Shown here in pieces: positions 4,363-23,381 of a DNA stretch of 64,000 nt. How positions within the stretch are numbered: position 1 is the stretch's first letter; the number at the start of each line of letters is the position of its first letter. The stretch lies in NCBI RefSeq assembly GCF_024346975.1, contig NZ_AP024885.1, positions 744,001 to 808,000 on the forward strand, written 5' to 3'. The stretch comes from Vibrio neonatus (GTDB taxonomy: Bacteria > Pseudomonadota > Gammaproteobacteria > Enterobacterales > Vibrionaceae). The position numbers and the translations under genes are program-made. The notes beneath the pieces were generated by a model. It had not been told where the DNA came from. It did no database searches and worked only from the letters and a program-made list of their open reading frames with translations.

Positions 4363-4390
4363 CTTTGCTCACTGATTTTGATTCATGCAT

Positions 4391-4427
4391 AAAAAACGGG
4401 AACTGATAATGTCAGTTCCCGTTTTTT
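4391..4427. terminator. Bidirectional rho-independent terminator edd / dsbB
   Basis: A perfect 9-bp stem (CGGGAACTG / CAGTTCCCG) flanked by an A-run on the left and a T-run on the right, so it can stop transcription from edd (+) and from dsbB (-), which converge here. Confidence 0.9.
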
Positions 4428-4445
4428 ATTTAATGCTATCAATAC

Positions 4446-4970
4446 TTAAATACGATTTTTCTTTAAGCCAACCACTTGTAGCAAGGTAAATAGGATAGCA
4501 ACCACCAGGCTTGCTCCAAAAATAATTACCAACCATTGTGGCATGGATAGGTCTAAAAATGTCCAGACGATTTTGCTACAAGTGCCAGTCGGTAGGAACA
4601 TCCACGGAACCCATTGATCAAGAGGTGCCCAACTAGGGAAATTGACAAAAATATCGCAGGTATTAAAAGGAGAGGGATCAAATTGGTAGCTCACATGCTC
4701 TAGAGCCAGTGATAAACCTTTGGCACTGGCCGCAATCCAACCGACTAATCCTAAGCCGCGTAGAACCGAGTTTTTGGGTTGGCATAGACCGACCATACCT
4801 GAGACTGCAATACCTAGCATTGCTACGCGCTCATAGATACACATCACACAAGGTGAAAGTAGCATGACGTGCTGGAAGTAAAGAGCGCAAAGCTCGAAGG
4901 CGACCATGGCAACAATCAATAACAGCCATGAAGTGCGAGAGCGAGAAAATTGGTATAAGTTCTCGAGCAT
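4446..4970 (-). CDS. dsbB: Disulfide bond formation protein B
   Basis: Inner-membrane quinone reductase of 174 residues that reoxidises periplasmic DsbA. Four hydrophobic segments are visible. The first periplasmic loop carries Cys41-Val-Met-Cys44 and the second Cys105 and Cys131, matching E. coli DsbB (Cys41/44/104/130) almost exactly. It lies downstream of nhaB on the same strand, a usual vibrio arrangement. A terminator hairpin lies between them at 5012-5041, so readthrough or a separate promoter is needed. Confidence 0.95.
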   Translation of the reverse strand: MLENLYQFSRSRTSWLLLIVAMVAFELCALYFQHVMLLSPCVMCIYERVAMLGIAVSGMVGLCQPKNSVLRGLGLVGWIAASAKGLSLALEHVSYQFDPSPFNTCDIFVNFPSWAPLDQWVPWMFLPTGTCSKIVWTFLDLSMPQWLVIIFGASLVVAILFTLLQVVGLKKNRI

Positions 4971-5004
4971 GAATCTATTTCCTTATGTGTACATCTATAT
5001 ATGC

Positions 5005-5041
5005 GCAAAAAAGCCAGCGAGGACTGTCGTTCGCGCTGGCT
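5005..5041 (-). terminator. Terminator after nhaB
   Basis: On the minus strand an 8-bp stem (AGCCAGCG / CGCTGGCT) is followed by TTTTTTG. It lies between nhaB and dsbB. Confidence 0.8.
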
Positions 5042-5112
5042 AATAACAGTAAGTTCTTTTTACCCCTTTAAAGGTGGCAAATCAATAGAGTACCAATAGG
5101 GAAATAAGTTCC

Positions 5113-6708
5113 CTAATGATGAACTACAGAACTTGATACATCGAGAATCTGCGTCGGTGGATCGGTAATCCAGCCGTAGTCCATAAAGGTTGCAGTCATC
5201 GGTTCTAAGAAGAACATAATACCGACCATTCCCACTAGGGCTAAAACAACGGTATATGGAAACGCCATAATAACCATTCGGCCATAAGAAAGGCGAATTA
5301 ATGGTGCAAGAGTTGACGTAAGTAGGAATAAAAATGCCGCTTGGCCGTTTGGTGTTGCTACTGACGGTAAATTGGTACCAGTATTGATAGCCACGGCGAG
5401 GAGATCAAATTGTTCACGGTTAATTACCCCGTGCAGTAAGGCCTCTTTAACCTCATTGATGTATACCGTACCGACAAACACATTATCGGAAATCATGGAG
5501 AGTACGCCGTTGGCGAGATAGAACAGCACGAGCTGGGTTCCTTGATCTTCTACTGCCAGAACGGCATCGATAATAGGTTCAAAGAGATCTTGCTGAATGA
5601 TCACGGCAACAATGGCAAAAAAGACAGCCAATAGCGCGGTAAAGGGTAGCGCTTCTTCAAACGCTTTACCTAATGCATGCTCTTCGATGATGCCGGTAAA
5701 AGAGGTGGCTAAGATAATGACCGATAGCCCGACTAAGCCGACTGCCGCCACGTGAAAAGCAAGACCGACAATAAGCCATAGCGCAATTGCGCCTTGAACC
5801 CAAAGTTTGGCGATATCCTGTTTGGTGCGGCTCTTTTTCTCTTCTTCGTTGTAATCTTCGAGAATTTTTCGTACTTGAGTTGGTAACTCTGATCCGTAGC
5901 CAAATATTTTTAGTTTTTCGACCGCAACGGTAGTCAGCAGTCCCATCACTAATACGGGTAAGGTAACGGGTAACATGCGGATGATAAACTCGCCAAATAA
6001 CCAGCCAGCTTGATCGGCTATGATAAGGTTTTGTGGTTCACCAACCATTGTCATAACGCCACCGAGCGCAGTACCTACACCGGCATGCATTAGCAGCGAG
6101 CGTAAAAATGCACGGTATTCGTCTAGATCATCACGAGTAAGCTCGGTTAAGTGGCTATCTTGAGTGTGGTCATGTTGAGTGCCGTGACCTTTTCCTGAAA
6201 CGACCTTGTGATAAATCGCATAGAAGCCAACGGCTACGCTAATCACCACCGCAATAACGGTCAATGCATCTAAAAATGCCGACAAAAAAGCGGCTGCGGC
6301 ACAAAAAGCGACGGACAACAGAGCTTTAGATCTAATGCCTAATAGTATTTTGGTGAAAATAACCAGTAGTAGCTGCTTCATGAAGTAAATGCCTGCAACC
6401 ATAAAGATCAGGAGTAGCATTACTTCTATATTGGCAACCAGTTCATGCTTGACCATTTCTGGGGTCGTCATGCCAATGGCGACGGCTTCAATTGCCAGTA
6501 AACCACCAGGTTGCAGTGGATAGCATTTGAGCGCCATGGCTAGCGTAAAAATGAACTCGACAACTAATAGCCAACCCGCAACAAATGGGTCGATTAAAAA
6601 GAATACAATTGGGTTTATGATCAAAAAGGCCACAATGGCTAGTTTGTACCAGTCAGGGGCTTTTCCGAGAAAGTTTTTGACGAAGGCGTTTCCTTGGCTC
6701 AAAGGCAT
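5113..6708 (-). CDS. nhaB: Na+/H+ antiporter NhaB
   Basis: Integral membrane protein of 531 residues with about 12 hydrophobic segments, belonging to the NhaB family of sodium/proton antiporters. It exports Na+ in exchange for protons, important in a marine bacterium. The start [22 protein letters not shown] is typical of NhaB. Conserved-looking stretches include [18 protein letters not shown] and [16 protein letters not shown] His/Asp-rich loop ([13 protein letters not shown]) sits near residues 174-186, cytosolic or periplasmic side unknown. It is divergent from fadR across a 632-base region. Confidence 0.95.
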
Positions 6709-7340
6709 GGTGCTTCTCTCTTAAAAGTATTTAAATCTGATCGAGTCGGTTCTATACGACCTATCCATGTGACAATCGGATTTAGCAGGTGGATAAGCTA
6801 CTGTATATTTTTACGGTGAGATATAGATTGAAAATTAGCGTATAGAACATGTTTTGTTCACGGTTTACATTCTGTAACACACACATTGTTGGCGCAATAT
6901 TTACTCTAATCAGTGGGATAGTCAATCAATTAGTGTGATTTACATCGTGTTTACAGTAAAAAACCATATAAAGCGCAATTCATATACAAGTTGGGTGTTT
7001 TTAGTGATGCTTTGGTTATATAAAACCGATGTTATTGTATGAGAAATAATCTTGACGTATAAGCTAATGTTTTTTAAGTACTAATAAATAACAATCTACT
7101 AATATTCTATAAGAAAATAATCTCATATTTGCTGCTATCAATCTTTCTCATAGGATGTTGAGCCTGGTTTACAGGATAAAATGGTATTTATTATTTTTTC
7201 TGGTGTAGCTGAGCCAATGAGATTAATCCAATCGAGAATGAGCAATATTTCATAACTAATCATCTACTCATTTTTGTAATTTTAGATTAGGTGGTATGAT
7301 GAGTGATATTTAGTGAATTTTAAGTTGGAACTTCCAATCT
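6709..7340. other. AT-rich divergent intergenic region nhaB / fadR
   Basis: 632 bases without a convincing ORF. It must hold the promoters of nhaB and fadR. I see no strong hairpin or recognisable operator; short palindromic AT-rich stretches are not distinctive. Confidence 0.5.
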
Positions 7341-8180
7341 ATGGTTATTAAGGCGAAAAGCCCAGCAGGCTTTGCAGAAAAGTACATTATTGAAAGCATT
7401 TGGAACGGACGATTTGCTCCAGGTTCTATTTTACCCGCTGAGCGTGAGCTGTCTGAACTGATTGGTGTAACACGAACGACCCTCAGAGAGGTTCTGCAAA
7501 GACTGGCGCGTGATGGTTGGTTAACCATTCAACACGGCAAACCAACAAAAGTGAATCAATTTATGGAAACCTCAGGTTTGCATATTTTAGATACATTAAT
7601 GACATTAGATGCCGACAACGCTACTAGCATTGTAGAAGATCTACTTGCCGCTCGAACTAGCATTAGTCCTATCTTTATGCGTTATGCATTTAAAGTGAAT
7701 AAGGAACAATCTGAACAGACATTGCGACGTGTTATCGACTCTTGCGAGGCTTTGATGCAAGCGGATTCGTACAGTAGCTTTATGGAGTCTTTCCCGTACG
7801 CTGGAAAAATTGCGCAAAACATCAAAGAAGACAATGAAAAAGATGAACAAAAGCGTGATGCGATTTTAGTAGCAAAAACCTTTAACTTCTATGATTACAT
7901 GTTGTTCCAACATTTGGCTTTCCATTCAGGAAACCAGATTTATGGTTTGATCTTCAACGGCTTAAAAAAATTGTACGATCGTGTGGGCGCTTTCTATTTC
8001 TCAAGCCCAGTATCACGAGAGCTGGCGCTTAATTTTTACAAAGATTTATTGTCAGTATGTGAAGACGGAAATCGTGACCGCATTGCTGCTATCGTACGCC
8101 AATACGGTATTGAAAGTGGTCAGCACTGGAATGAAATGAAAGTGAGCTTACCAACAAACTTTACTGAAGACGACAGTTAA
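7341..8180 (+). CDS. fadR: Fatty-acid metabolism regulator FadR
   Basis: GntR-superfamily acyl-CoA-responsive regulator of 279 residues. The winged helix spans about residues 10-75 ([23 protein letters not shown] is the recognition region), followed by the all-helical acyl-CoA-binding domain. E. coli FadR has 239 residues; here an extra ~40-residue segment around residues 138-177 is inserted, as known for Vibrio FadR, where it adds a second ligand-binding site. FadR represses beta-oxidation and activates fab genes. ATG 7341 gives the conserved start [16 protein letters not shown]. Confidence 0.95.
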
Positions 8181-8243
8181 GCAGCTTGTGTTAGAGCGCA
8201 CAGCTCACTAACTCGCTTAACTAAGCATCTGTTATTATTTGCT

Positions 8244-8272
8244 AAGCCCTGCATCGTTTGCAGGGCTTTTTT
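8244..8272 (+). terminator. Terminator after fadR
   Basis: Stem AAGCCCTGC / GCAGGGCTT with a 7-base loop and a T-run, 64 bases after the fadR stop. Confidence 0.9.
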
Positions 8273-8576
8273 GTTGGTCGGCATTGTGGTTGATGAAGTG
8301 ATCCATTATTGAATAGGGTCAGTATAAGTATCCACATGAAAGATTTTTTGCATAGAAAAGGTCTGTTTAGTTATCTTCAATTCATTATTTTTTAAGTAGT
8401 GATTGGTATAAGTAATGGATTGATCTTGTGAGGATTTTCGTAATGTGTGGACAACCTTAGATGAGTTAATGTAAATAAAAGTAGAAATAATAATCATTCT
8501 GCGTGTATTTATCATTCATTTGGCACTAAAATTTAAGGGCGTTCCTAGCTTTAATGAGTTAACAGAGGGCGTTGAT
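8273..8576. other. Intergenic region before small secreted protein
   Basis: About 300 AT-rich bases between the fadR terminator and the small gene at 8577. A minus-strand 69-codon frame here has no family resemblance and looks fortuitous. I see no regulatory site I can name. Confidence 0.45.
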
Positions 8577-8974: not shown

Positions 8975-11900
8975 TTAGTGAAAATCACGAGAATGACTTG
9001 CTAGCTGTGCTAGTTCATCACTGATGTCAATTAATTGACCTGCAATAATGTGTATTACCTCGCCTTCTTTTTCTATAATCCCTTTTACTTTTAGTATCTT
9101 AGCGGTTAAATAACTCTTCTTTTGCGCTCTAGCGGTTGCTTGCCACACCACTACATTTATGTTGCCTGTATCATCTTCTAGAGTGAAAAAGGTAATGCCT
9201 CCAGCGGTATGAGGTGATTGCCTACCTGTGACCACACCAACTACAGTGACCATTGATTGATGAGGCTGGTGGATCAATTGGTTTTGTCGAACGAACTTTC
9301 CTAATTTATTCTCTTTTTCGAGCAGAGTAATGGGATGTTGATTTAGGGATAGTCCAGTGGCGGAATAATCCTCGATCAACGCTTCGTAATCATTGGTTTG
9401 AAAGACATAATCCGGCTTAATTTGCGCGCTATTTAGTTGATTAAAGAGTGGCAGATCTTCTACAGAATCCATTAACTGCCAACGAGTAGAGTAGCGATCA
9501 CCGGTAAGATCATACAGTGCATTGGCGGAGGTAAGAGCGTGCAGCTGTTGTCGATTGATACCAATATTTTTGATTTGTTGGATATGCGTAAACCCTTTTG
9601 CAGGGCGGGCGGCTAACAGTTGCTCTCGGCTATTTTGCGAGAGTCCTTTGATCAGTTTTAAACCTAATTGAATACTACTTATATTATTGTTTCTGACGAT
9701 GCTGTGATCATCATTAGACTGATTAATGCTGATAGGATGCACATTCACGCCATGTCGTTTGGCGTCTTGTAGTAGTTGGTTAGACGAATAAAACCCCATC
9801 GGCTGACTATTGAGTAGGGCTGTATAAAACTCAGCTGGATAGTAATATTTGAGCCACGCAGAGCAGTATGCAAGCACGGCAAAAGAAGCAGAGTGACTTT
9901 CTGGAAATCCATATTCACCAAAACCACAAATCTGTTCAAAAATTTTCTCGGCAAAGCGACGCTCATAGCCCCGACAGAGCATCCCTGAAATCAGCTTATC
10001 GCGAAACTTAAATAAATCGCCATTTTTTTTCCAAGCGGCCATAGCACGGCGCAATTGGTCGGCCTCTCCACCACTAAAGCCCGCCGCCACCATCGCCAAT
10101 TTAATCACTTGTTCTTGAAATATTGGGACGCCTAAGGTTCTTGATAGAACACTTTCTACCTCTTGGGAAGGGTACGAAATAGCTTGTTCTCCATTTCTGC
10201 GCTTTAAATAAGGGTGAATCATATCGCCCTGTATCGGGCCGGGCCTGACAATAGCGATTTGAATCACTAAGTCATAATAACAGCGCGGTTTAAGGCGCGG
10301 TAACATGCTCATTTGAGCTCGTGATTCTATTTGAAAAACACCTATGGTATCGGCCTTTTGTAGCATGGTGTACACCTTAGGATCGTCTTGTAAGCGAGTG
10401 ATATCAGCAATACTAAGTTGTCGCTGATGATGACGTTCAATTAACTGAAAGCAACGCTTGATGGCACTTAGCATTCCCAAAGCAAGTACATCAACTTTGA
10501 GTAGCCCTAAACTTTCTAAGTCATCTTTATCCCATTGGATAATGGTTCGCTCGGGCATAGCGGCGTTTTCTACGGGCACTAATTCATATAAAGGGCCTGC
10601 TGAAATAACAAAGCCGCCCACGTGTTGCGATAGATGACGAGGAAAGCCGATGATTTCGTCGACTAGTTGTATAAATAACTGTCCTTTTAAAGAATCAGGT
10701 TTTAGCCCCAGTTCATAAATTTGCGCTTGCCAATTTAAGCCGACATCACGGCGATTAATGTTTTTGATGAAAAAATCGAGTTGAGTTTCATCTATGGCTA
10801 ATGCTTTACCCACTTCTCGAATGGCACTTTTTAATCGATAGCTGATGACAGTGGCGGCAAGAGCGGCTCGCTCACGTCCATATTTTTGATAAATATATTG
10901 GATGACTTCTTCACGACGTTGGTGTTCAAAATCCACATCAATATCGGGCGGCTCATTGCGCTCTTTACTGATAAAACGTTCAAACAGGACTGATATTTGT
11001 CTAGGATCGACAGAGGTGATTTCTAAGCAATAACACACCACGGAGTTTGCAGCAGAGCCTCTGCCTTGATACAAAATCCCTTTTTGTTTGGCGAACATCA
11101 CCACATCATGAATGGTTAAGAAAAAATGGGCATAATTAAGCTCATCAATGAGTTTGAGTTCTTTATCTATGGTTATCTGAACACTTTTAGGCACGCCATT
11201 TGGAAACCGCAGCTGCTTACCTTGATTAACCAGTTGGCATAAATGAGCAAATGGCGTTACAGAGCGTGGCACGATTTCAGCAGGATATTGATAGCCTAAG
11301 CTGGCTAAGTTAAAAGAACAGCGACAGGCTATATTGTGGGCTTCTTCTAGCCACTCTTTACGGAAGAGTTTGCTCAATTTGGGTTTATTGCGCAGAGCTC
11401 GCTCTGTATTAGTCAGTAGGTGCTCACTTATATTTGCCACGACGGCATTATGCTTGATTGCGACAAGGGTATGTTGCAGTGCAAGACGCGTGGCGTTATG
11501 CATTAATACCCCGCCACATGCAGTAATCGGGATAGTGTATTGATGAGCAAGTTTTTGATTGTAGTCTAGGTATTGTTTATCTGTGTTGGTGAGGTGCCTT
11601 TGTAGCCCAAGCCATAGTCGCGCACTGTGTTGTTTGGTTAGCCATTTTGCCCAATGGTGATCATATTCTTGCATCTGTGGTAGCCAGATAATCAAGCAGT
11701 GCTTAATGGAGAGTATGTCCCATTGTGATAGTGAATACTTACCTTTATCACTGCGTCTGCGCGCGTTAGTGATGATGCGAGCTAACTCAGCATAGGCTTG
11801 TTGGTCTGGGCATAGCAGTATAATTTGGCACTCTTGGTCTAACCAAAACATACTACCGACGATAAGTTTGATGCTGAGTTGCTTATCCTTAATTGCGGTA

Positions 11901-12061
11901 TGCGCTCTAACGACTCCCGCTAAAGAGCACTCATCGGTTATAGCCAGCGCTGAATAGCCGAGAAAATCAGCTTGCGTGATGAGCTCCTCGGGATGCGAGG
12001 CTCCGGTTAAAAACGAAAAATTGCTCTGACAAAAGAGCTCAGCATATTTAAAAGTAGACAT
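8975..12061 (-). CDS. dnaE2: Error-prone DNA polymerase DnaE2 (ImuC)
   Basis: C-family DNA polymerase of 1028 residues, the catalytic unit of the SOS mutasome with ImuA and ImuB. An N-terminal PHP domain (about 1-200) precedes the polymerase core with GRGSAANS (about 333-340) and the catalytic acidic motif PPDIDVDF (Asp near 373 and 375). A helix-hairpin-helix region and an OB fold (VTVVGVVTGRQSPHTAGGITFFTLED) follow. The C-terminal tau-binding domain of replicative DnaE is absent, as expected for DnaE2. ATG 12061 is chosen over TTG 12067. It is the last gene of imuA-imuB-dnaE2, 50 bases after imuB. Confidence 0.95.
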   Translation of the reverse strand: MSTFKYAELFCQSNFSFLTGASHPEELITQADFLGYSALAITDECSLAGVVRAHTAIKDKQLSIKLIVGSMFWLDQECQIILLCPDQQAYAELARIITNARRRSDKGKYSLSQWDILSIKHCLIIWLPQMQEYDHHWAKWLTKQHSARLWLGLQRHLTNTDKQYLDYNQKLAHQYTIPITACGGVLMHNATRLALQHTLVAIKHNAVVANISEHLLTNTERALRNKPKLSKLFRKEWLEEAHNIACRCSFNLASLGYQYPAEIVPRSVTPFAHLCQLVNQGKQLRFPNGVPKSVQITIDKELKLIDELNYAHFFLTIHDVVMFAKQKGILYQGRGSAANSVVCYCLEITSVDPRQISVLFERFISKERNEPPDIDVDFEHQRREEVIQYIYQKYGRERAALAATVISYRLKSAIREVGKALAIDETQLDFFIKNINRRDVGLNWQAQIYELGLKPDSLKGQLFIQLVDEIIGFPRHLSQHVGGFVISAGPLYELVPVENAAMPERTIIQWDKDDLESLGLLKVDVLALGMLSAIKRCFQLIERHHQRQLSIADITRLQDDPKVYTMLQKADTIGVFQIESRAQMSMLPRLKPRCYYDLVIQIAIVRPGPIQGDMIHPYLKRRNGEQAISYPSQEVESVLSRTLGVPIFQEQVIKLAMVAAGFSGGEADQLRRAMAAWKKNGDLFKFRDKLISGMLCRGYERRFAEKIFEQICGFGEYGFPESHSASFAVLAYCSAWLKYYYPAEFYTALLNSQPMGFYSSNQLLQDAKRHGVNVHPISINQSNDDHSIVRNNNISSIQLGLKLIKGLSQNSREQLLAARPAKGFTHIQQIKNIGINRQQLHALTSANALYDLTGDRYSTRWQLMDSVEDLPLFNQLNSAQIKPDYVFQTNDYEALIEDYSATGLSLNQHPITLLEKENKLGKFVRQNQLIHQPHQSMVTVVGVVTGRQSPHTAGGITFFTLEDDTGNINVVVWQATARAQKKSYLTAKILKVKGIIEKEGEVIHIIAGQLIDISDELAQLASHSRDFH

Positions 12062-12111
12062 GTTCAATTTATGAATACATTACAGTTGAATGCTAGAAGG
12101 TAAGTTGCTCA

Positions 12112-13599
12112 TTAGCTGAATACTCCCTGAATGAACCATTCTTTAGTTGGGGTTTTGTATATCCATAACCAGCGGCCATTGTGTTCTCGCGCTATATAGT
12201 AATCACGGTTAATTGAGTTTCCATCCCACCATCCGCTATGAATACGCTCAGGACCTTGGATAATTTCAACCTTGCTATGGAGAGGTTTAGGTTTGGGATA
12301 GATAAAACTAGGGCGAGTGAGTTTTACTTGTGTGTGATTTTTTTCTGGCTTTGAAAAGGCAGGAACATAGGTAGTACTGAGCTCAGGCCTAGGATCGTGA
12401 TTAGAGGCAATACCTTGTACCGCTTTTGGACCTAACTTAGCTTGTAATAAAGAAAGCAGCTCTAAAGGTGATATTTCCCCTGTGTGTTGATCAAATAGGT
12501 CAACTTTGGTGGCCGGCGTTTCTCCCATACGCATCACTTGTAAGCGGATGGATAGAATAGGTGAACTAACCTGAATGGATTCAAGCGTCAGTTTAGACAG
12601 TTGTAGCCACTTAGCAGAAAGGTAGTCACCAATAGCAGAATAGAAGGTGATCTCCTGCTGTGATTGATCCCTTTGATAAAGGCTAAGTTGAATTTCGTAG
12701 GCCACTTTATCTCTTAGCTTTAAAAAGCTTTCCATTTGTTCTAATAAGCGGCTTAGCGGTGCGATTAAGCAGTGAGTATGCTCAATTTCATACAATAAAT
12801 TGAGGTGCTGATTAAAGTGAGCGGGCGGATGATAATACTGCACAGGGTGCTTAAATTGACCGAGTAGTCGCCCCACATAGTTGACGACTTGGATATCAAA
12901 ACGGCGCGCAATGTCCGTCATATTAAGAGCGGTAAGCTGCGCTAAATTATGTACGCCAATACGAGCAAGTTTCGCTATATTTGCCGTACTAAGCTCAGTG
13001 GTAATGAGTGGGCGCTGTAAAACAGATTGTTCGATAGTGTCTTGATCATCAGTAATACGATCACAGTGAGTTTCAGCTAAAAGCTTAGCCGCAAGAGGAG
13101 AAAATGCGGTGGCATAGTGATAGTTCAGATGCAGTTGATTAAGGTGCTGTGAGATGGTTTTCCAGTAACTATTGAGGTTGCGATAAAGGGTTAGCATATT
13201 AGAGACCTTAAGTAGCAAGCCCTGCTCTGGGAAGAGAGTAATGTCTGAGGTATACACATACAACCATTGTGCAACTTGCTGTAATTTATCGATTTCTATT
13301 TGCTGTTGATAAGGAAATACTTGCAGTTCGGCGCACAGTGAAGCAGCGCTACCTAATCCCATTCCTAATGTTATGCCTTTATCTGAAGCTACCTGATTGA
13401 GCTGTATGATCTTGTGTTGCTCAACAATACAGATAGCGGGGTTTTGTGTTGGATCATGGGGTATAAGTTGATTGTTAAGCCCATTTTTTGCTTGAGGGTT
13501 GAACGCGACTTTAGAGCTGTTTGCAGAATCTAAAGTTGAGTCTGCAAACAGCGTATCTAATTGCAATTTTGGGAAATGAATATACAGCCAAAGGTTCAT
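12112..13599 (-). CDS. imuB: Y-family-like mutasome protein ImuB
   Basis: Y-family polymerase homologue of 495 residues that bridges DnaE2 to the beta clamp in SOS mutagenesis. The usual first catalytic Asp motif is replaced (residues 5-12 YIHFPKLQ), and the second acidic motif (SxDE) is not found where FPEQGLLLKV stands, so it should be catalytically dead like other ImuB proteins. The C-terminal end YYIAREHNGRWLWIY...WFIQGVFS is typical of ImuB. ATG 13599 overlaps the imuA stop by ATGA, arguing against an ORF start further upstream and for translational coupling. It has an unusual Gln/Asn-rich insertion near residues 22-45. Confidence 0.9.
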   Translation of the reverse strand: MNLWLYIHFPKLQLDTLFADSTLDSANSSKVAFNPQAKNGLNNQLIPHDPTQNPAICIVEQHKIIQLNQVASDKGITLGMGLGSAASLCAELQVFPYQQQIEIDKLQQVAQWLYVYTSDITLFPEQGLLLKVSNMLTLYRNLNSYWKTISQHLNQLHLNYHYATAFSPLAAKLLAETHCDRITDDQDTIEQSVLQRPLITTELSTANIAKLARIGVHNLAQLTALNMTDIARRFDIQVVNYVGRLLGQFKHPVQYYHPPAHFNQHLNLLYEIEHTHCLIAPLSRLLEQMESFLKLRDKVAYEIQLSLYQRDQSQQEITFYSAIGDYLSAKWLQLSKLTLESIQVSSPILSIRLQVMRMGETPATKVDLFDQHTGEISPLELLSLLQAKLGPKAVQGIASNHDPRPELSTTYVPAFSKPEKNHTQVKLTRPSFIYPKPKPLHSKVEIIQGPERIHSGWWDGNSINRDYYIAREHNGRWLWIYKTPTKEWFIQGVFS

Positions 13600-14270
13600 G
13601 CGTGTTGCCTCTTGTGTAGAGGAAAAGGAATGACTTGGTGCAAAGGCTTTTGAGTACAAAGTTGCGGCCAGCGGTGACTTAAATCGACGCTAAAGGCTTG
13701 TTGTTGCCATCCGCCGCGACGTTTAATCACATCTACCGTCATTCCGCTTTCTGTTGCATTGAGTTGTACGCTAAGAGGAATGGGTAGCGAAGCACTATTT
13801 TGGCGGTCGAGATTAAAATGTACGTTTAATGCTCGGCCTTTTTCGGCTGCAATTTGTAAACGCCTGGCTTGGTGCACCTCCAATTGTGGATGCCATAAGC
13901 ACACGCAGGCGCAACTACCGCTTTTTAAGCATTGCTCTGCCGCCCATAAGTCGTGTTTAGTACTGTCTATAACTAAGACGTTATGAGGGGCAATACCTTC
14001 AGTTTCAAAATAATGAGCGCATGGCAGGGCAGGTGGGTTAATCAATACCAAGCTGCGATCTTGAGTGGTTGATTGCAACATAGGGGTCAGTAACCTCAGT
14101 TCACCAATACCGAATTCAGATTGGATCTCCATAAGCCCCATTTTTGGGAAACCTTCTAGATGTTGATCCCATTCACTAAAGTAAGACGGCTGATTAATTA
14201 AAGGGATGTTTTGCTCTGAACCCTTCCAAATCAATTGCTTACGCTGTAATAAATCAATAATATTTTGCAT
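13596..14270 (-). CDS. imuA: RecA-like mutasome protein ImuA
   Basis: ImuA/SulA-related RecA-fold protein of 224 residues, the first gene of the SOS mutasome operon. It contains the sequence FGIGELRLLTPML near the start of the fold and ends with a basic tail. A longer frame starting at 14291 would put the start inside the LexA box, so ATG 14270 (MQNIIDLLQRKQLIWKG) is chosen. The stop overlaps the imuB start (ATGA). Expression should be induced by DNA damage through LexA. A canonical Walker A is not evident, in line with the degenerate ATPase site of the family. Confidence 0.88.
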   Translation of the reverse strand: MQNIIDLLQRKQLIWKGSEQNIPLINQPSYFSEWDQHLEGFPKMGLMEIQSEFGIGELRLLTPMLQSTTQDRSLVLINPPALPCAHYFETEGIAPHNVLVIDSTKHDLWAAEQCLKSGSCACVCLWHPQLEVHQARRLQIAAEKGRALNVHFNLDRQNSASLPIPLSVQLNATESGMTVDVIKRRGGWQQQAFSVDLSHRWPQLCTQKPLHQVIPFPLHKRQHA

Positions 14271-14279
14271 AATAAATAC

Positions 14280-14295
14280 CTGTATATACATACAG
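14280..14295 (-). promoter_or_regulatory. LexA box of the imuA-imuB-dnaE2 operon
   Basis: CTGTATATACATACAG fits the gamma-proteobacterial SOS box CTGT-N8-ACAG perfectly, with the preferred alternating TA core. It ends 10 bases before the imuA start codon. Confidence 0.93.
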
Positions 14296-14507: not shown

Positions 14508-16805
14508 TTAGGTAACGTCTGGATTGTGTTGTAATAAGAGCGCTTCAAAGTCTTCTTTAGAGAGCGCTTTACTGTAGTAATATCCTTGGGCAAATTCACA
14601 ATGCTGTGTTTTTAAGTAGTTTTGATCCCACTGAGTTTCAACCCCCTCAGCAACCACTTTCAGCCCTAGTGCTTTTGCCATAGCAATAATGGCATTGACC
14701 AGTTCTTGCGAAGAAGGGTTTGTTTCCATATCTTGCAAGAAGGAACGATCGATTTTGAGCTTACTAAATGGAAACTTCTGTAGGTAACTTAACGCCGAAT
14801 ATCCGGTACCAAAATCATCAATAGAAAAGTGCGCGCCAATTCGTTTGATCTCTTCTAATATTTGCACCGTTTCGATGTTGTTGTTAAAGAGTAAGCTTTC
14901 CGTAATTTCAATATCAAGTAAGCTGGCATCTAGCCCCGAATTACTTAGGGCAGTTAAGATACTTTCAATTAATGTTTCTTGCTGTCTAAATTGAGCGGCA
15001 GAAAAGTTTACAGCAATGGAAAGCGGTTGAATGGCTTGCCATTGTTGAGCTTGGTGACAGGCAGTATGTAGCGCCATATGCCCTAACTTATGGATAAGCC
15101 CATTTCTCTCTGCAATAGGAATAAATTCATCTGGCGGTACAAAGCCAAGTTTGTCATCCCACCATCGCATTAAGGCTTCTGCGCCGGTGATTTTTTTACT
15201 TTCTAGATCAATAATCGGCTGATAGTAGATCTCTAATTTATTATCGTTAATTGCTTGGCGTAGCCTAGCATCAATATCCAAGCTTCTTTGAACATCGGTA
15301 TTCATGCTTGCTTCATAGAAGCTAAAGCCATTTCGCCCCTCTTTTTTCACTCGATACATCGCAATATCAGCATGTGCCATTAGCTCTTCGGTGGTTTTGC
15401 CATCTTGAGGGTACATGGACATGCCAATGCTGGTGGAGATGAAAAATTGGCTGCCGTTAAGCTGAAAAGGCTGTTCAAAGATGGTTAACAGTTTAGAGGC
15501 TAAGGTTTGAGCTTCTTTCTCTGAGCTTAGGTTAGGGATAACCAATAAAAATTCATCCCCGCCAATGCGCGCAACCACATCGGTTTTACGAACTGATTGA
15601 CGTAAACGCTTAGCTGTTTGCACAAGAAGTCTATCGCCGGCTAGATGACCTAAGGTGTCGTTGATTTGTTTGAAATCATCAAGGTCAATGAACATAACTA
15701 ACACGTTGACATCATCTCGCTTCGCTTGCAGCAAGGCATGCCTTAGTTTTTCATCGCCCGATTTACGGTTAGATAGGCCGGTTAAAATATCGTGACTGGC
15801 TTGATAAGCCAGTTCTTTTTCAAACATTTTACGCCTGTCTATCTCTGTTTTAAGACGATGGTTCTGCCGTGTTAATACCGCTTGTTGGTTATGTGTTTCT
15901 TCAATTTTAGTGGTGAGTATTAGGTTAGTATTGTTAATTCGTAATGAGTAGTACAGTCCTAAAATAACGGGCACCGCCAAGAAGGACAGCGCGATAGTAA
16001 ACCAAGTTGATGTGATTATCTGGCTTTCTGATATCGGTGCAAACCAAGCGTGCAGACTAAACGGGGTGTTCGCTACTTTTTGATTAAAGTACAAAGTGTT
16101 TGAGTGATGATCACCCGATGAATCAAAAGTATCCCAAATAGGCAGTGCACCGTGCACGGTAGAGAGCGTAAGTTGGCTATTACTGAGTTGATATTCTTGG
16201 GTAGTAAGTAGGTTTATGATGGATTCATTTTTAACATCACCCACTAAAATACCGACGACTTCACCATTGAGATAAACGTTTTGTAATGCTCGAATAACGA
16301 TATGATCATTTTCGACCAGAATATCAATTTCGTGATCGACAGTTTGCATTTTTTTAAATGGAATACTGCTTAAATCAAACGGGATTTTTGGGCTTGAATC
16401 CGCAATAATGTTTGAATTAAAGCCAACCAGAAGCATTCGATTAAATTTAGCGTTTTCATGTAGATGCGGGTTAGGGTTGGTATGGCGAATCAAGTTACGG
16501 CGCAACTGCAGTAAACTTGATCCTAATCCGTATTGCATGGACATACCAGAAGCAAGGTTTGCGAAAAACGTATACGTCGTTTTATGCTGGGCAACTTCAC
16601 TCAATTCTTTTTTGGTCGTCTCAAAGAAGTAACCAATGGATTCTGAATAAATTTTTACATTCAGATTCAGCTCATTCAACTGTGATTCTTTGAGGCGATT
16701 TTGCCCAGCATTAGTGACAACAATCATTAATAGCAAGTAAGCGCCTAGAAGAAATCCTCCCATGAGAATGGCATTGCGGCGATTTAATCTAAGCTTCATA
16801 TTCAT
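14508..16805 (-). CDS. Membrane GGDEF-EAL protein, c-di-GMP turnover
   Basis: 765 residues: TM helix (about 12-31), periplasmic sensor region (32-265), second TM (266-288), coiled segment (295-332), GGDEF domain with GGDEF at 415-419, then EAL domain with EAL at 543-545, DDFGTGYSAL and VAEGVET. An allosteric RxxD I-site is present at 406-409, so the cyclase motif is intact and the EAL motifs also look intact; net activity cannot be told from sequence. Its ATG overlaps the stop of the solute-binding protein gene (ATGA), which strongly suggests that the binding protein is its periplasmic partner, as in the NspS-MbaA pair of Vibrio cholerae. The hydrophobic-TM-bounded loop is a Cache-like sensor at most; I cannot assign it. 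Confidence 0.9.
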   Translation of the reverse strand: MNMKLRLNRRNAILMGGFLLGAYLLLMIVVTNAGQNRLKESQLNELNLNVKIYSESIGYFFETTKKELSEVAQHKTTYTFFANLASGMSMQYGLGSSLLQLRRNLIRHTNPNPHLHENAKFNRMLLVGFNSNIIADSSPKIPFDLSSIPFKKMQTVDHEIDILVENDHIVIRALQNVYLNGEVVGILVGDVKNESIINLLTTQEYQLSNSQLTLSTVHGALPIWDTFDSSGDHHSNTLYFNQKVANTPFSLHAWFAPISESQIITSTWFTIALSFLAVPVILGLYYSLRINNTNLILTTKIEETHNQQAVLTRQNHRLKTEIDRRKMFEKELAYQASHDILTGLSNRKSGDEKLRHALLQAKRDDVNVLVMFIDLDDFKQINDTLGHLAGDRLLVQTAKRLRQSVRKTDVVARIGGDEFLLVIPNLSSEKEAQTLASKLLTIFEQPFQLNGSQFFISTSIGMSMYPQDGKTTEELMAHADIAMYRVKKEGRNGFSFYEASMNTDVQRSLDIDARLRQAINDNKLEIYYQPIIDLESKKITGAEALMRWWDDKLGFVPPDEFIPIAERNGLIHKLGHMALHTACHQAQQWQAIQPLSIAVNFSAAQFRQQETLIESILTALSNSGLDASLLDIEITESLLFNNNIETVQILEEIKRIGAHFSIDDFGTGYSALSYLQKFPFSKLKIDRSFLQDMETNPSSQELVNAIIAMAKALGLKVVAEGVETQWDQNYLKTQHCEFAQGYYYSKALSKEDFEALLLQHNPDVT

Positions 16806-17743
16806 GTATCGTTACTTTTGTGAGCCTTAAAGTAGTCACTGTAATAATAAAATACAGAAGGGTAATATTTTTCAACTAGCTGATTGTAAGTACCATTACG
16901 TCGAATTTCCCTTAAATAATCATTAAAGGCTTCACGTAGTTTAGGTGAATCTTTTCTAAAGCCTGCAGCCATAAACTGTTCTTCAGAAATTGGGCCGATA
17001 ACTTTAATTTCACCAGGCCATTTTTCTAACGCAATTAAAGTGTCTGGAACATCGAGCAGTGTGTTATCTGCATCTTTATTTAATATCGCAGGGACCATTT
17101 CATTTAACTTGCGAGCTTTTTCAGGAAGAATGATATTAGCCCCAGTTTTGTACAGATCATACAAGTTAGGGTCTAGGCATGTCTGTTCCATAGCTAACAC
17201 ATTTTGATCTTTGAGCAAGGTCTTCACGGCATCAATGTCTTTATCGACACTATTGCTTGGGGAAATAGGTTGTAGCTCTGAGTCAGCGCGAGAAATTAAC
17301 CATACAGCAGAAGGGAAGTAGTCATCAGAGAAGTCAATTAGTTGCTCTCTCCACGGGAGAATGGTTGCGCCATTAGCGATCACATCACCTGTAATCGGCA
17401 CTTTTTTACCGTACTGTATGACGTTGTCTTTATAAATGGCTTCTTTTCCTGTGAGGTCACCAAAAGCGCTATTCCAAGTGCTTGGAACAAATTGGTATTC
17501 AACGCCTAAGTACTTAGCAAAGCCTTGTATGAGTTCAATATCTAAGCCTTGAGCCGTATAGAGACCATCGGTGTTGATATAGTTGACAAAGTTGGCGTAA
17601 GGGATGCCAATGTGACGAATTACACCTGCTTTTTTGACATCGGCTAAGTCATAGGCATAACTTGGCTTGATAACAAATAATAGAGCGATGCAAAGACTTT
17701 TTATGATGGTGAATGTGGTCTTTGTTTTTATCATTGCCTTCAT
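16802..17743 (-). CDS. Periplasmic family-3 solute-binding protein (sensor partner)
   Basis: 313 residues with a signal peptide (cleavage near Ala30, SYA-YDLADV) and an SBP_bac_3 fold typical of amino-acid-binding proteins: GLDIELIQGFAKYLGVEY near the start and LREIRRNGTYNQLVEKYYP at the end. No ABC permease or ATPase gene is near; the next gene, overlapping by 4 bases, is a GGDEF-EAL protein. It is therefore likely to sense a periplasmic ligand and not to feed an importer. The upstream gene is a Tat-exported PLP enzyme 59 bases away, separated by a hairpin. The ligand may be an amine or amino acid handled by that enzyme; this is inference. Confidence 0.85.
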   Translation of the reverse strand: MKAMIKTKTTFTIIKSLCIALLFVIKPSYAYDLADVKKAGVIRHIGIPYANFVNYINTDGLYTAQGLDIELIQGFAKYLGVEYQFVPSTWNSAFGDLTGKEAIYKDNVIQYGKKVPITGDVIANGATILPWREQLIDFSDDYFPSAVWLISRADSELQPISPSNSVDKDIDAVKTLLKDQNVLAMEQTCLDPNLYDLYKTGANIILPEKARKLNEMVPAILNKDADNTLLDVPDTLIALEKWPGEIKVIGPISEEQFMAAGFRKDSPKLREAFNDYLREIRRNGTYNQLVEKYYPSVFYYYSDYFKAHKSNDT

Positions 17744-17759
17744 CCTTGAAATATAAAGT

Positions 17760-17785
17760 AGGGCTTACATTAGCAAGTAAGCCCT
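17760..17785 (-). terminator. Intercistronic hairpin between PLP-enzyme and binding-protein genes
   Basis: AGGGCTTAC / GTAAGCCCT stem of 9 bp with an 8-base loop. On the minus strand it is followed by ACTTTATATTT, a poor T-run. It lies 17 bases after the PLP-enzyme stop and may act as an attenuator between the two genes. Confidence 0.55.
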
Positions 17786-17802
17786 AGGCTGTTAAGCGAA
17801 TA

Positions 17803-19230
17803 TTAAGCCATTCGTTTGTACAAATGTGCCATCGCTTTCACTAGACCCGTTACATCATCTTCATCATGGAATAAGTGAGTAGAAATACGTAATGCATAAG
17901 TAGCAGTAGTATCGTCTAGACGCAATGAGAAGTTAGTAGTGCGGATAGTGTATCCGTATTCTTCGCGAAGTAGATCACGGAATTCAGTTAGACGAGTGCC
18001 GTTAGACAGGTCATCAGAGAATGGGTTGAACGAAGTTAAACCACTTGATAGTTCGCGCTCTGGTGGGCAGAAAAGAGTACCGTGTGGCAATTCTTTGCTT
18101 AGCTCTTCTTTACACAAAGCACTAAGATCTAGAATACGCTCTTCGATTTTATCACGACCAATTTCATCCCATAGTTTACAAGTATCAGCTAGAGCTTGTT
18201 TGGCTGGGTAGTTGTCGTTGCCGATGTACTGCATTCTGGTCACAAAGTTCATTGTTTGATAACCATCTTCACCAAGTGATGAGTTAACAAAGTAGAAAGG
18301 ACGGCGGTCTGCAGGCCAGAAACGAATCAAACGCTCAGCTTCTTGACGAATATAAAGGATACCCGTTGCGCCTGGGCCACACTGCCACTTATGACCAGAA
18401 CCTGCATAGAAATCACAATCCATGTCATGCAGATTAACATTCATCATGCCAATGGTATGAGCGGCATCAACTAACGTTGGGATACCGTTATCACGTGCTA
18501 GTGCACAAATCTCTTTTGCTGGTAGTAAAGTACCGGTTAAGTAAGTAATGTGAGAGAACATTACCAAGCGTACATTGCCGTTTGCATTGTGCTCTTTAAT
18601 GGCATCAGCAAACACATCAACAAAGTCTTTTTTCTTCAGTTTTTTCTCGCCTGTGTAAACAGGGATTTCAACAAAAACAACTTTAGCACCTACGCGATCG
18701 GCAGCACTAAATAGTGGAGAGCGTCCACCAATATGCTCATGATGAGTAGTAATGATGATGTCGTCTTTTTGGAAATCTAGACCAGAAAGAATAGAAACCA
18801 TGCCATCTGTTGTATTTCGGCTTAGAACGATTTCATTTTCATCTGCGCCAAAGCCAGGTGCAATGTCTGCTGCCATTTGGCTCATGTAAGGCCAGCTGCC
18901 AAACTTGTTTTGCATGTCCCAAGGGTATTTAGCAACAAGCTCATGGTTCTCAGCTAGGGTCTTTTGCACGCTAGTTGGCATTGAACCTGTTGTACCAATG
19001 TTCATGTAAACATTGCCATTCGCTAAAGAGAACTGCTGTTGAACCTTCTTCCAGAAATTTTTGTCTGAAGAGTTGCCATGAGAGAAGGCTGCGTGTGGAT
19101 GGTGTGGGTGGTGCTGGTGTCTCGCTAAAGCACTCGTTGAGAAAAGAGAAGTACCTAGTCCTGCAACAGCAACACCTGCGCTACCTTTTAAAAAATCCCT
19201 ACGGTTAAACTTAGACGTGGTTTCACTCAT
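17803..19230 (-). CDS. Tat-exported class V aminotransferase-like PLP enzyme
   Basis: 475 residues of the class V aminotransferase / isopenicillin-N-epimerase-like fold. The N-terminus carries a twin-arginine signal (NRRDFLKG at 9-16, hydrophobic stretch to about 36), so a folded, PLP-loaded enzyme is predicted to be exported. A His-rich linker (HQHHPHHPH, 39-47) follows. PLP-binding features are intact: VDAAHTIG at 254-261 and the Schiff-base lysine K281 in GSGHKWQCGPGATG. The substrate cannot be told; cysteine desulfurases, kynureninase and epimerases share this fold. Periplasmic PLP enzymes are rare, and its place before a sensor pair is notable. Confidence 0.85.
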   Translation of the reverse strand: MSETTSKFNRRDFLKGSAGVAVAGLGTSLFSTSALARHQHHPHHPHAAFSHGNSSDKNFWKKVQQQFSLANGNVYMNIGTTGSMPTSVQKTLAENHELVAKYPWDMQNKFGSWPYMSQMAADIAPGFGADENEIVLSRNTTDGMVSILSGLDFQKDDIIITTHHEHIGGRSPLFSAADRVGAKVVFVEIPVYTGEKKLKKKDFVDVFADAIKEHNANGNVRLVMFSHITYLTGTLLPAKEICALARDNGIPTLVDAAHTIGMMNVNLHDMDCDFYAGSGHKWQCGPGATGILYIRQEAERLIRFWPADRRPFYFVNSSLGEDGYQTMNFVTRMQYIGNDNYPAKQALADTCKLWDEIGRDKIEERILDLSALCKEELSKELPHGTLFCPPERELSSGLTSFNPFSDDLSNGTRLTEFRDLLREEYGYTIRTTNFSLRLDDTTATYALRISTHLFHDEDDVTGLVKAMAHLYKRMA

Positions 19231-20013
19231 TATTTCATTTCCTTTAATTGAGTTTAGATAAATCTTTCTTATAGTACTTAAAGAACGATATTAGAAACTG
19301 CTAATGTCGTATTCTAAAGACTAAAATCTTAACTTCGTATCAAACAAGGCATAGTTAAAATCTTATCTAACCAGTATTAACGCTATATGTTTCAATATTA
19401 TGTTTTTGTGAAAGTAGCTTATGTTTAAAAATAGCGAATAAGCACCCAGTAACATATAAATTCTGTTTTATGCATGTTATTTCAAGAGGCACATTATATT
19501 TACAGCAATTTATAATTGATATATTTAAGCTGTTACATGTTGGTAAATCGTGATCATTGTCGAGAAATTAAATTAAAACTCATATATATCAGTGATTTAG
19601 TTGATTTCTTTTAGAGGTGAGTTTGTGGTTTTAGGCTGATTATTGTAATGCACTGGATATTTATTGATGTTTGCCGAGAGTCGCCAGTTATGCATTAGTA
19701 AACCTTACTTATTAGATAAGTTATTATGCGAATAGCTGTAATTTTATGCATTCTATATAGAGGGTAAATATTAACATGTGATTATGTAAAATAGCGGCGA
19801 AATAACGATTAGATAGATAGGGTTTTGCGGTATTAAAGAGAAGAATAAACCCGTTAGAAGCGATGTCTAATTTGCAGCACCCTGATTGATCTTGCTAGCG
19901 TGCACCCAGCAGGGAAAAGTCGTGAATATAGTGGTTTAACAGGAAAATGTTGCTAAAGTAAATATGAATATAATGAAAATATTCTGCAAATAAGCGCTTA
20001 ATCTGCAAAGAAC
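19231..20013. other. Long AT-rich intergenic region
   Basis: 783 bases between the divergent PLP-enzyme gene and the hydrolase gene. I see no ORF with codon character, no strong hairpin and no recognisable operator. It must contain the promoters of both flanking genes and may carry a small RNA that I cannot support. Confidence 0.45.
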
Positions 20014-21029: not shown

Positions 21030-22001
21030 TTAGTAGCTTTGTAGCGCATCCAGAGTTGGAACCAAAGCAGGGTTCTCTTTTCTGAACTTGTCATAAACAC
21101 TAGATACTTTCTTTTGGAATGCAGAAACATCAACTTCAGTTATTTCACCACCATTTTTGATGATTTCAGCTTTTGCATAGTCAGAGTATTCATCCCAGTA
21201 CTTATCTTGAACATCTAAAGCTTCTCTTGCCACTTGGCGAATAGTCGCTTGATCTTCTTTTGATAGACCATGCCAAATTTCAGTAGATACAACGAGCAGA
21301 TCAGGAATCATGGTGTGTTGATCTAAAGTGTAATATTTTGCTACTTCGTACTGACGAGTAGAGAAGTAAGTCGGGATATTGTTTTCTGCGCCATCTACAA
21401 CACCTTGTTGCAATGCAGAATAAACTTCACCTGATGAAATTGGCACAGGGCTAACGCCTAATGCTTTCATCGTATCAATATCGATTGGTGAGTTTTGCAC
21501 ACGAATTTTTAGACCTTTAAGATCTTCCGGCGTAGATATTTTGGTTTTGGTATAGAATCCACGAGAACCGCTAGATAAAAATGCGAGTCCAATAAAGCCG
21601 TCTTTTTCAGAAGACTGTAGAATTTTATCACCGACAGGGCCGCGTAAAATTCTTTTTGAATCCGCTTCATCTTTATATAAGTAAGGCAAAGACAGCACTT
21701 TATATTCTGGTGAAAAAGAGGCTGCTAAACCACCACCGACTTTAGCAAATGCTAGAGTGCCGTTTTGTACCATTTGTAAGGTTGACTCTTCACCACCTAA
21801 AGTTAAGTTAGGATAAACTTTAATTCTCATATTTGTTCTTTTAGAAACTTCTTGTGAGAACCAAGTTAAGGATTTATGTACAGGATGCTCTAATGGCATT
21901 GCATGAGCGAGTTTTTGCATTTTCGCTGATGCATTGAATGATAGAGATAGCATTGCTAATCCAGTACAGGTCAATAAAGTCTTTAAGTTCATTATTTTCA
22001 T
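21030..22001 (-). CDS. dctP: TRAP transporter solute-binding protein DctP
   Basis: 323-residue periplasmic binding protein with a signal peptide (cleavage near Ala26, NASA-KMQKL). The DctP-family signatures are clear: an N-terminal HAMPLEHPVHKSL, LGGEESTLQMVQNGTL and the carboxylate-anchoring region LKGLKIRVQNSP. It delivers an organic acid, usually a carboxylate or sugar acid, to DctQM. ATG 22001 follows AAGGA by 6 bases. It is the last gene of dctQ-dctM-dctP. The GntR-like operator upstream suggests a sugar acid such as gluconate, and the PL6 lyase nearby suggests a uronate; neither is shown. Confidence 0.9.
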   Translation of the reverse strand: MKIMNLKTLLTCTGLAMLSLSFNASAKMQKLAHAMPLEHPVHKSLTWFSQEVSKRTNMRIKVYPNLTLGGEESTLQMVQNGTLAFAKVGGGLAASFSPEYKVLSLPYLYKDEADSKRILRGPVGDKILQSSEKDGFIGLAFLSSGSRGFYTKTKISTPEDLKGLKIRVQNSPIDIDTMKALGVSPVPISSGEVYSALQQGVVDGAENNIPTYFSTRQYEVAKYYTLDQHTMIPDLLVVSTEIWHGLSKEDQATIRQVAREALDVQDKYWDEYSDYAKAEIIKNGGEITEVDVSAFQKKVSSVYDKFRKENPALVPTLDALQSY

Positions 22002-22028
22002 TTTTTATCCTTTATTAAAAATTAATGT

Positions 22029-23381
22029 TTAATAGCCAACTAGCTTAGGTAACCACATAGTTAGACTTGGAAATGCAGTAACGATTATCAATGCCAATAG
22101 GATAAATCCGTAAATTGGTAAGAGTTTTGGTACTACATCGCCTATTTTTCTATTAGCAATGCTGCAGCCTACAAATAAAGCAGTGCCGACAGGGGGGGTA
22201 CAAATACCAATAGACAAGTTAAACACCATCATGATTCCGAAATGAATAGGGTCCATTCCCAAATAAACGCCAATCGGTAATAAAATAGGTGTAAAAATTA
22301 ATATAGCGGGTGACATATCCATGAATGTGCCAACCACAAGGAAAATCAAGTTCATTGAAATCAATATAATGATTGGATTTTCAGAAATATTAAGTATGAA
22401 CTCTGCAATATACTGAGGTATATCAGCATTTGACATCGCCCAAGACATCGAACTTGATGTTGCAATCATCAGTAATACGATTGACGTGATAATTACACTA
22501 TCGATAACGATAGACGTTAAGTTTTTAATTTTTAGTTCTTTATATATAAAGCCGAGCGCTAAACTATACACAACGGCTATAGCTGAAGCTTCTGTTGCTG
22601 TAAATACACCTCCTACGATGCCACTCATAATTAAAATAACCATAAATAGGCTAGGGATTGCCTCAATGATTATGCTATACGCGGATTTCTCTGATCTTAC
22701 TTTTTCTTGTGGTACCTTGTATTTTTTACCGAAAATAAAGATGCCTGCCATTACTGCTAGACCCATCAATATTCCAGGGAAGTAGCCAGCTAAGAATAAG
22801 TATTGGACGGATGTACCACTGACCAATGCATACAGTATTAATACATTTGATGGTGGTATCAGTAGTCCTGAAGGACAAGAGGCAATATTGACCGCACTAG
22901 AGAAATCTTTTGGGTATTTCTTTTCGTTCTGTAATTCGCCCATAAGCCCGCCAACAGCGGCTGCAGAGGCGGTGGCTGATCCTGATAGTGAGCCAAACAT
23001 CATGTTTGCAATAACGTTGACATGACATAGCGCACCCGGCAGTCGACCACCTAATAGCATGGCAAAGTTAATCAGTCTCTTAGCGATACCACCAGAGTTC
23101 ATGAGGTTGCCAGCAAATATAAAGAAGGGTAAAGCCAATAGCCCAAAGTTATCCAGTCCTCTTAATAACTGCTGAGAAGCTAAACTTGCCGATTTGTCGA
23201 TTGGAAAATGTAGGAATATGGTTAGTAGTGAAGATAATCCAATACTAAACGCAATTGGCATTCCTATAATTAGGAATACAAATAACGAGCCAAATAAGAC
23301 AATAACCGGTAACAAGTAATAGACAGCATCAGGCATTATTGAAAGATATTGTTCAGTAAACATTAAGTCTAGTAATGTCAT
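22029..23381 (-). CDS. dctM: TRAP transporter large permease DctM
   Basis: 450 residues, 11-12 hydrophobic segments, DctM/SiaM large subunit of a tripartite ATP-independent periplasmic transporter driven by Na+ or H+ gradient. Typical stretches: LPFFIFAGNLMNSGGIAKRL, SGSATASAAAVGG and PPSNVLILYA. It starts 6 bases after dctQ. The assigned start lacks a clear ribosome site; Met16 (MPDAVYYLL) is an alternative. Confidence 0.93.
   Translation of the reverse strand: MTLLDLMFTEQYLSIMPDAVYYLLPVIVLFGSLFVFLIIGMPIAFSIGLSSLLTIFLHFPIDKSASLASQQLLRGLDNFGLLALPFFIFAGNLMNSGGIAKRLINFAMLLGGRLPGALCHVNVIANMMFGSLSGSATASAAAVGGLMGELQNEKKYPKDFSSAVNIASCPSGLLIPPSNVLILYALVSGTSVQYLFLAGYFPGILMGLAVMAGIFIFGKKYKVPQEKVRSEKSAYSIIIEAIPSLFMVILIMSGIVGGVFTATEASAIAVVYSLALGFIYKELKIKNLTSIVIDSVIITSIVLLMIATSSSMSWAMSNADIPQYIAEFILNISENPIIILISMNLIFLVVGTFMDMSPAILIFTPILLPIGVYLGMDPIHFGIMMVFNLSIGICTPPVGTALFVGCSIANRKIGDVVPKLLPIYGFILLALIIVTAFPSLTMWLPKLVGY

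Follow-up and report, generated by a model that had tools for sequence, protein, structure and literature searches.

A probable scrABC operon in Vibrio neonatus and comparative clues to the nature of the S-signal

Founding work on the scrABC operon is said to be that of Boles and McCarter from 2002 and of Trimble and McCarter from 2011. In Vibrio parahaemolyticus, scrA, scrB and scrC are the genes VPA1513, VPA1512 and VPA1511 on the small chromosome (PMC10269520). According to the portions of the published papers available to us, a compound termed the S-signal originates from ScrA in this organism and is bound by ScrB, and the loaded ScrB flips ScrC from making to breaking cyclic di-GMP (c-di-GMP) (PMC11315295, PMC10269520, PMC9303241, PMC8630636, PMC12548387). 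The same portions describe the ScrA-produced S-signal as extracellular (PMC11315295, PMC8630636), place capsule genes under ScrABC control as well (PMC8630636) and, in a paper from 2024, call the S-signal "an unknown molecule" (PMC11315295); the passages on the term in papers published since then give no identity for it. Repression by OpaR also counts among the features associated with ScrABC. A periplasmic binding protein likewise controls a membrane-bound GGDEF-EAL protein in the NspS-MbaA pair of Vibrio cholerae. NspS is a PotD-type binding protein, and no pyridoxal 5'-phosphate (PLP) enzyme is known to belong to this pair. It differs from the locus described here in that it senses polyamines, which abstracts on the system name as the ligands of NspS. 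Here we analyze three genes in a stretch of 64,000 nucleotides of the Vibrio neonatus genome, referred to as the window, and we put at roughly 90% the probability that they constitute an scrABC operon, orthologous to the V. parahaemolyticus system, that works by the S-signal and ScrC-switch mechanism set out below and has an output other than swarming.

All three genes are located on the minus strand of the window. The first, scrA (positions 17803 to 19230), encodes a class-V PLP enzyme of 475 amino acids with the Pfam domains TAT_signal and Aminotran_5, that is, with a start typical of twin-arginine translocation (Tat), and is the proposed S-signal synthase; scrB (16802 to 17743) encodes a family-3 periplasmic solute-binding protein of 313 amino acids (SBP_bac_3, PF00497), and scrC (14508 to 16805) a membrane protein of 765 amino acids with a periplasmic sensor loop and GGDEF and EAL domains. 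The list of open reading frames and Pfam agree on this set of same-strand genes, as the first-pass annotation had it, and the ATGA by which scrB and scrC were said to overlap was seen at positions 16802 to 16805. The binding protein had also been described as lacking an ATP-binding cassette (ABC) partner, and indeed no ABC transporter gene was apparent among the 11 open reading frames of at least 80 amino acids listed between 11.5 and 22.5 kb, five of which were scanned with Pfam and six judged by eye. The host genome comprises 3.84 Mb in two contigs and carries scrABC on the larger one (C1).

A candidate new c-di-GMP sensing module had originally been proposed for this site. The sensing module stands, its novelty does not: P0014, a homologue of the binding protein, bears the name scrB in its source record, which led us to reject the reading as a new module, since scrABC is already known from V. 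parahaemolyticus. P0143, a V. parahaemolyticus homologue from a cluster of 861 sequences, matches ScrA with 58% identity over nearly the full length, and ScrB and ScrC share 59% and 47% identity with the V. harveyi proteins P0065 and L029, respectively. The V. neonatus and V. parahaemolyticus systems agree in gene content and order, in domain types and in the Tat-type start of ScrA; they differ in the sequence of ScrA, in the four-base overlap of scrB and scrC in V. neonatus, in location on the larger contig as opposed to the small chromosome named in the V. parahaemolyticus source (PMC10269520), and in the absence of any flagellar-rod or flagellin match from the V. neonatus genome, which leaves no swarming output. 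As ScrB is 95% identical to its homologue from Vibrio halioticoli, the host belongs to the Halioticoli clade of vibrios, a group that appears in the clade list seen in PMC3873509.

Searches of 217 Vibrionaceae genomes found ScrA, ScrB and the first 330 residues of ScrC in 31 genomes each. These are the same 31 genomes, and in every one of them the three genes are adjacent, on one strand and in one order, including the gene for the PLP enzyme, whose conservation beside the other two had been singled out for checking; the three-gene set is therefore not a chance assembly. An ScrA homologue is also encoded in V. natriegens. Among 80 named ScrA loci, which are the best 80 of 459 relatives, scrB and scrC are present at 65, of which 50 are collinear and 15 have scrBC inverted. 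The inverted arrangement is that of 15 Shewanella loci (L059-L070, L072, L076 and L082), where scrA and scrBC are on opposite strands and converge tail to tail. The remaining 15 loci include stretches ending at contig ends, solo ScrA genes and the unusual locus L086 discussed below. A stop within scrB was reported by the searches in two genomes (G102 and G077). A solo-ScrA query against 369 Gammaproteobacteria genomes matched the host genome and one other (E-values up to 1e-50), and ScrA-like genes occur in 8 of 375 genomes from the phylum of genome G585 and in 3 of 85 from its class, the latter three all having been found by the earlier searches. The scrABC locus in a record of Marinobacter nauticus (L057) groups with Ferrimonas (L056, L075) in the ScrA tree, possibly the mark of a mislabelled genome.

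ScrA carries the Tat-type motif RRDFLK at residues 10 to 15, from which the enzyme appears to be bound for the periplasm, as the first-pass annotation had assumed, and K281 within GHKW is its presumed PLP lysine. The pattern RR-x-[FML]-[LIMVF]-[KRQ], with a hydrophobic segment and a site resembling A-x-A downstream of it, is found in all of the best 120 of 707 ScrA homologues, that of V. parahaemolyticus included. The stricter pattern RRxF[LIMV] occurs at 75 of the 80 named loci; on visual inspection, L087, L089 and L090 have RRxFF instead, and the sequences at L046 and L054 are fragments of scrA genes that are interrupted. The Tat signal is called by Pfam in only some homologues and had been considered a clade-specific novelty, an idea that was rejected because all 120 listed homologues have the motif. 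A literature search on twin-arginine ScrA in Vibrio, whose coverage did not extend to the founding papers, gave nothing that concerned ScrABC by title. With the motif in all 120 listed homologues, the S-signal is probably made in the periplasm, which would explain how the signal gets outside the cell although the operon has no exporter gene.

Of the solved structures, PvdN of Pseudomonas comes closest to the ScrA profile (119 bits), and it likewise has the class-V PLP fold and an RR motif at the start of its aligned chain. By its family name and description PvdN is a periplasmic pyoverdine-tailoring enzyme, whereas ScrA falls far below the cut-off of that family (111.6 of the 650 bits required for NCBIfam model NF051467). 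The next-best distinct solved enzyme is L-cysteine/cystine C-S lyase (C-DES; 110.5 bits), which is not known to have a Tat signal or a binding-protein partner. ScrA stays under every NCBIfam cut-off for cysteine desulfurases (SufS, CsdA, IscS, NifS), with 94.4 of 475.1 bits for TIGR01979 and lower scores for the other listed models, and several sources label ScrA homologues isopenicillin-N epimerase. Near the solo ScrA gene of locus L097, a gene at positions 4022 to 4903 encodes a protein with a Tat-like start and a weak match to L-2-amino-thiazoline-4-carboxylic acid hydrolase (27.5 bits against a cut-off of 28.1), which perhaps hints at cysteine-type substrates.

In family-3 binding proteins, an arginine and an aspartate hold the head group of the amino acid. 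R132 and D231 of ScrB align with these two residues in an ancestral amino-acid binding protein, and both are invariant in all 35 aligned ScrB homologues. In a structure model of ScrB calculated from 35 sequences (mean predicted local distance difference test (pLDDT) score 90.3, predicted template modelling score 0.84), the closest folds are arginine-, glutamine- and tryptophan-binding proteins, and the listed structural neighbours are mostly amino-acid binding proteins. As the clamp is kept and the nearest folds bind amino acids, the ligand of ScrB is probably amino-acid-like.

ScrC has hydrophobic segments near residues 10 to 32 and 264 to 290, and these bound a loop at about residues 33 to 263, in agreement with the periplasmic loop of some 230 residues noted in the first-pass annotation. 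The GGDEF domain (residues 336 to 492) contains RIGGDEF (413) and an RKTD I-site (406), the EAL domain (513 to 746) EALM (543), DDFGTGYSA (663) and EGVE (720); the site residues of both domains are invariant in 18 of 18 aligned ScrC proteins and intact in V. neonatus. The sensor loop is at most weakly Cache-like, with weak Pfam dCache matches in 7 of the 18 proteins (E-values up to 0.1), and a single-sequence model of the sensor was discarded at a mean pLDDT of 39.5. At L086 (positions 2672 to 8293), from a metagenome-assembled genome (MAG) of the Desulfobacteraceae, the gene after scrA and scrB encodes, in place of ScrC, a histidine kinase of the hybrid type (HisKA, HATPase_c, Response_reg), whose sensor part is a weak match to ScrC (45 bits).

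No match to Flg_bb_rod was found in 10 of the 217 Vibrionaceae genomes, V. neonatus included, and the same 10 had no flagellin match, while all four flagellated genomes searched alongside had one. Judging by the title of Sawabe 1998, V. halioticoli is reportedly non-motile. Carriers of scrABC make up 7 of the 10 genomes without a Flg_bb_rod match, 6 of the 136 with one to eight matches and 18 of the 71 with nine or more, the last class being taken to have two flagellar systems. Exact tests, in which genomes were treated as independent despite their kinship, gave 5.6e-5 for none versus any and 1.8e-5 for two versus one system. Hence, scrABC goes with lateral flagella, as expected, yet is kept where flagella are gone. 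Five of the seven flagella-less carriers have ScrA identities of 63-100% and two of 57-58%, and the seven probably fall into two lineages. The control of swarming and lateral flagella seen as a phenotype in V. parahaemolyticus lies outside the module proper and has no counterpart in V. neonatus. With no flagellar-rod or flagellin match, the output must be a non-swarming target of c-di-GMP; matrix or capsule is our best guess, by analogy, because the available text on V. parahaemolyticus places capsule genes under ScrABC control too (PMC8630636).

A clue to the chemistry of ScrA came from genes outside the operon. V. inusitatus (L071), V. comitans (L074) and V. superstes (L078) encode ScrA a second time, with no scrBC in the stretch of sequence analysed. 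At about positions 5161 to 7356 of these loci, this solo scrA and a small gene point away from each other, and the small gene encodes a RidA whose start resembles a signal peptide (Pfam scores of 148.8 bits for L071 and 146.9 bits for L078; the L074 protein aligns to that of L071 without difference). A pair in this divergent arrangement, with a RidA that has a lipobox-like start, occurs at three loci of Deltaproteobacteria MAGs (L087, L091 and L092; 130.6-132.4 bits) and at L120 of the same class, where RidA was recognized by its match to the L071 protein (83 bits). In a tree of 84 ScrA sequences, in which basal supports are low, the Vibrio solo set stands on a long branch beside the ScrABC enzymes of the Halioticoli clade (support 0.919), and the other RidA-paired set forms a clade of its own among Deltaproteobacteria (support 1.0). 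The exported Vibrio RidA shares 74% identity with a RidA of V. neonatus that has no signal, but only 31-34% with the deltaproteobacterial set. Because the ScrA sets lie apart in the tree and the RidA identities diverge in this way, an exported RidA has apparently come to stand beside ScrA without scrBC on two separate occasions. V. neonatus itself has three RidA-family genes; the two that were read lack a signal peptide, and the predicted open frame of the third, 120 amino acids, leaves no room for one. By eye, all seven exported RidA proteins have an arginine directly before a V/L-E-V motif, presumably the catalytic residue of RidA. According to the parts of the literature available to us, RidA deaminates enamines and imines such as 2-aminoacrylate (PMC5636819, PMC12172467). 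The pairing of an exported RidA with seven solo ScrA genes in two lineages suggests that ScrA-type enzymes release enamine or imine products.

These findings have to be weighed against other explanations. The first-pass annotation had likened the set to NspS-MbaA, and one could accordingly imagine a polyamine sensor of that type with an accessory PLP enzyme modifying polyamines. The likeness holds as a working analogy, given the shared architecture of a binding protein and a membrane GGDEF-EAL protein, and amines are possible substrates of PLP enzymes. The binding protein, however, is not of the PotD type but belongs to family 3 and keeps the alpha-amino-acid clamp, its listed structural neighbours mostly bind amino acids, and the locus is orthologous to ScrABC. 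A polyamine ligand is unlikely, and we rejected this sensor type as extremely improbable. Of the roles suggested for the PLP enzyme, making the sensed compound is the most likely and fits the published ScrA model. ScrA could instead be a scavenger acting on an amino acid from the environment, which it would remove or change and which ScrB would sense, in keeping with the amino-acid-type pocket and with loci (L004 in genome G175, L046 and L054, the latter two counted among the 65 scrABC loci) at which scrA is interrupted by in-frame stops or truncation and scrB and scrC are open. These may be natural strains in which the S-signal is sensed but not made, and the extracellular S-signal reported to come from ScrA in the accessible text on V. 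parahaemolyticus (PMC11315295, PMC8630636) makes a scavenger improbable. A possible though still doubtful alternative accepts ScrABC and takes ScrA for a PvdN-like transaminase or oxidative deaminase, or for an epimerase, instead of an elimination enzyme. PvdN as best solved relative and the epimerase labels speak for it; the C-S lyase as next-best distinct enzyme, the two separate gains of an exported RidA and the great distance from the PvdN cut-off speak against it.

Several points count against the ScrABC assignment or against the proposed chemistry. Orthology was assessed with the V. parahaemolyticus protein for ScrA and with V. harveyi proteins for ScrB and ScrC. Beyond the five closest genomes, orthologues share only 31-42% identity with ScrC over its first 330 residues, for which reason docking details may differ. 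Swarming, the best-known output, cannot occur in V. neonatus. Elimination by ScrA and an amino-acid clamp in ScrB are compatible only so long as the product, or something derived from it, stays amino-acid-like. In none of the 65 scrABC loci was RidA found, over stretches reaching up to 6 kb to either side; it is present at 6 of the 15 named loci that lack the scrBC pair, was not found at the other nine (L073, L079, L085, L086, L089, L090, L094, L097 and L098, several of which end at contig ends), and was not found in five of six further ScrA regions. Its absence from scrABC loci and from other solo loci makes the RidA clue an indirect one.

Upstream of scrA, an intergenic region of 783 bp (positions 19231 to 20013, strand not assigned) is the presumed promoter region. 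The window holds three genes adjoining scrC at positions 8975 to 14291, which we take to be a dnaE2-imuB-imuA mutagenesis cassette. Genes for a tripartite ATP-independent periplasmic (TRAP) transporter at positions 21030 to 23381, with DctP identified by Pfam and a neighbour that looks DctM-like to us, are apparently unrelated to the operon.

In the mechanism that we propose, ScrA is predicted to be exported by the Tat pathway and, with PLP, would form the S-signal; the periplasm is the most likely place for this, and the reaction may be of the elimination type with an amino acid as the substrate. ScrB would take up the S-signal in its amino-acid-type pocket, and loaded ScrB would dock on ScrC at its periplasmic loop and convert ScrC from a diguanylate cyclase to a phosphodiesterase, so that c-di-GMP would fall; in V. 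neonatus, the response would most likely concern matrix or capsule and attachment. A wider picture, tentative and rather unlikely to hold in all its parts, is that periplasmic ScrA carries out an elimination on an amino acid and needs no exporter, that ScrB reads the enamine or imine product or an amino-acid-like derivative, that exported RidA destroys the product and would be a natural quencher of the S-signal, that flagella-less vibrios have retained the module for control of the matrix instead of swarming, and that ScrA and ScrB of a Desulfobacteraceae relative feed a histidine kinase in place of ScrC.

For the most part, our finding is the re-identification of a known operon in a further host. 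What it offers are testable clues to the identity of the S-signal, which comparison narrows by a Tat-type maker, an amino-acid-type pocket in the reader and a link to enamines or imines through two RidA pairings. As scrABC is kept in 7 of the 10 Vibrionaceae genomes without a flagellar-rod match, "swarming regulator" is too narrow a name for this module.

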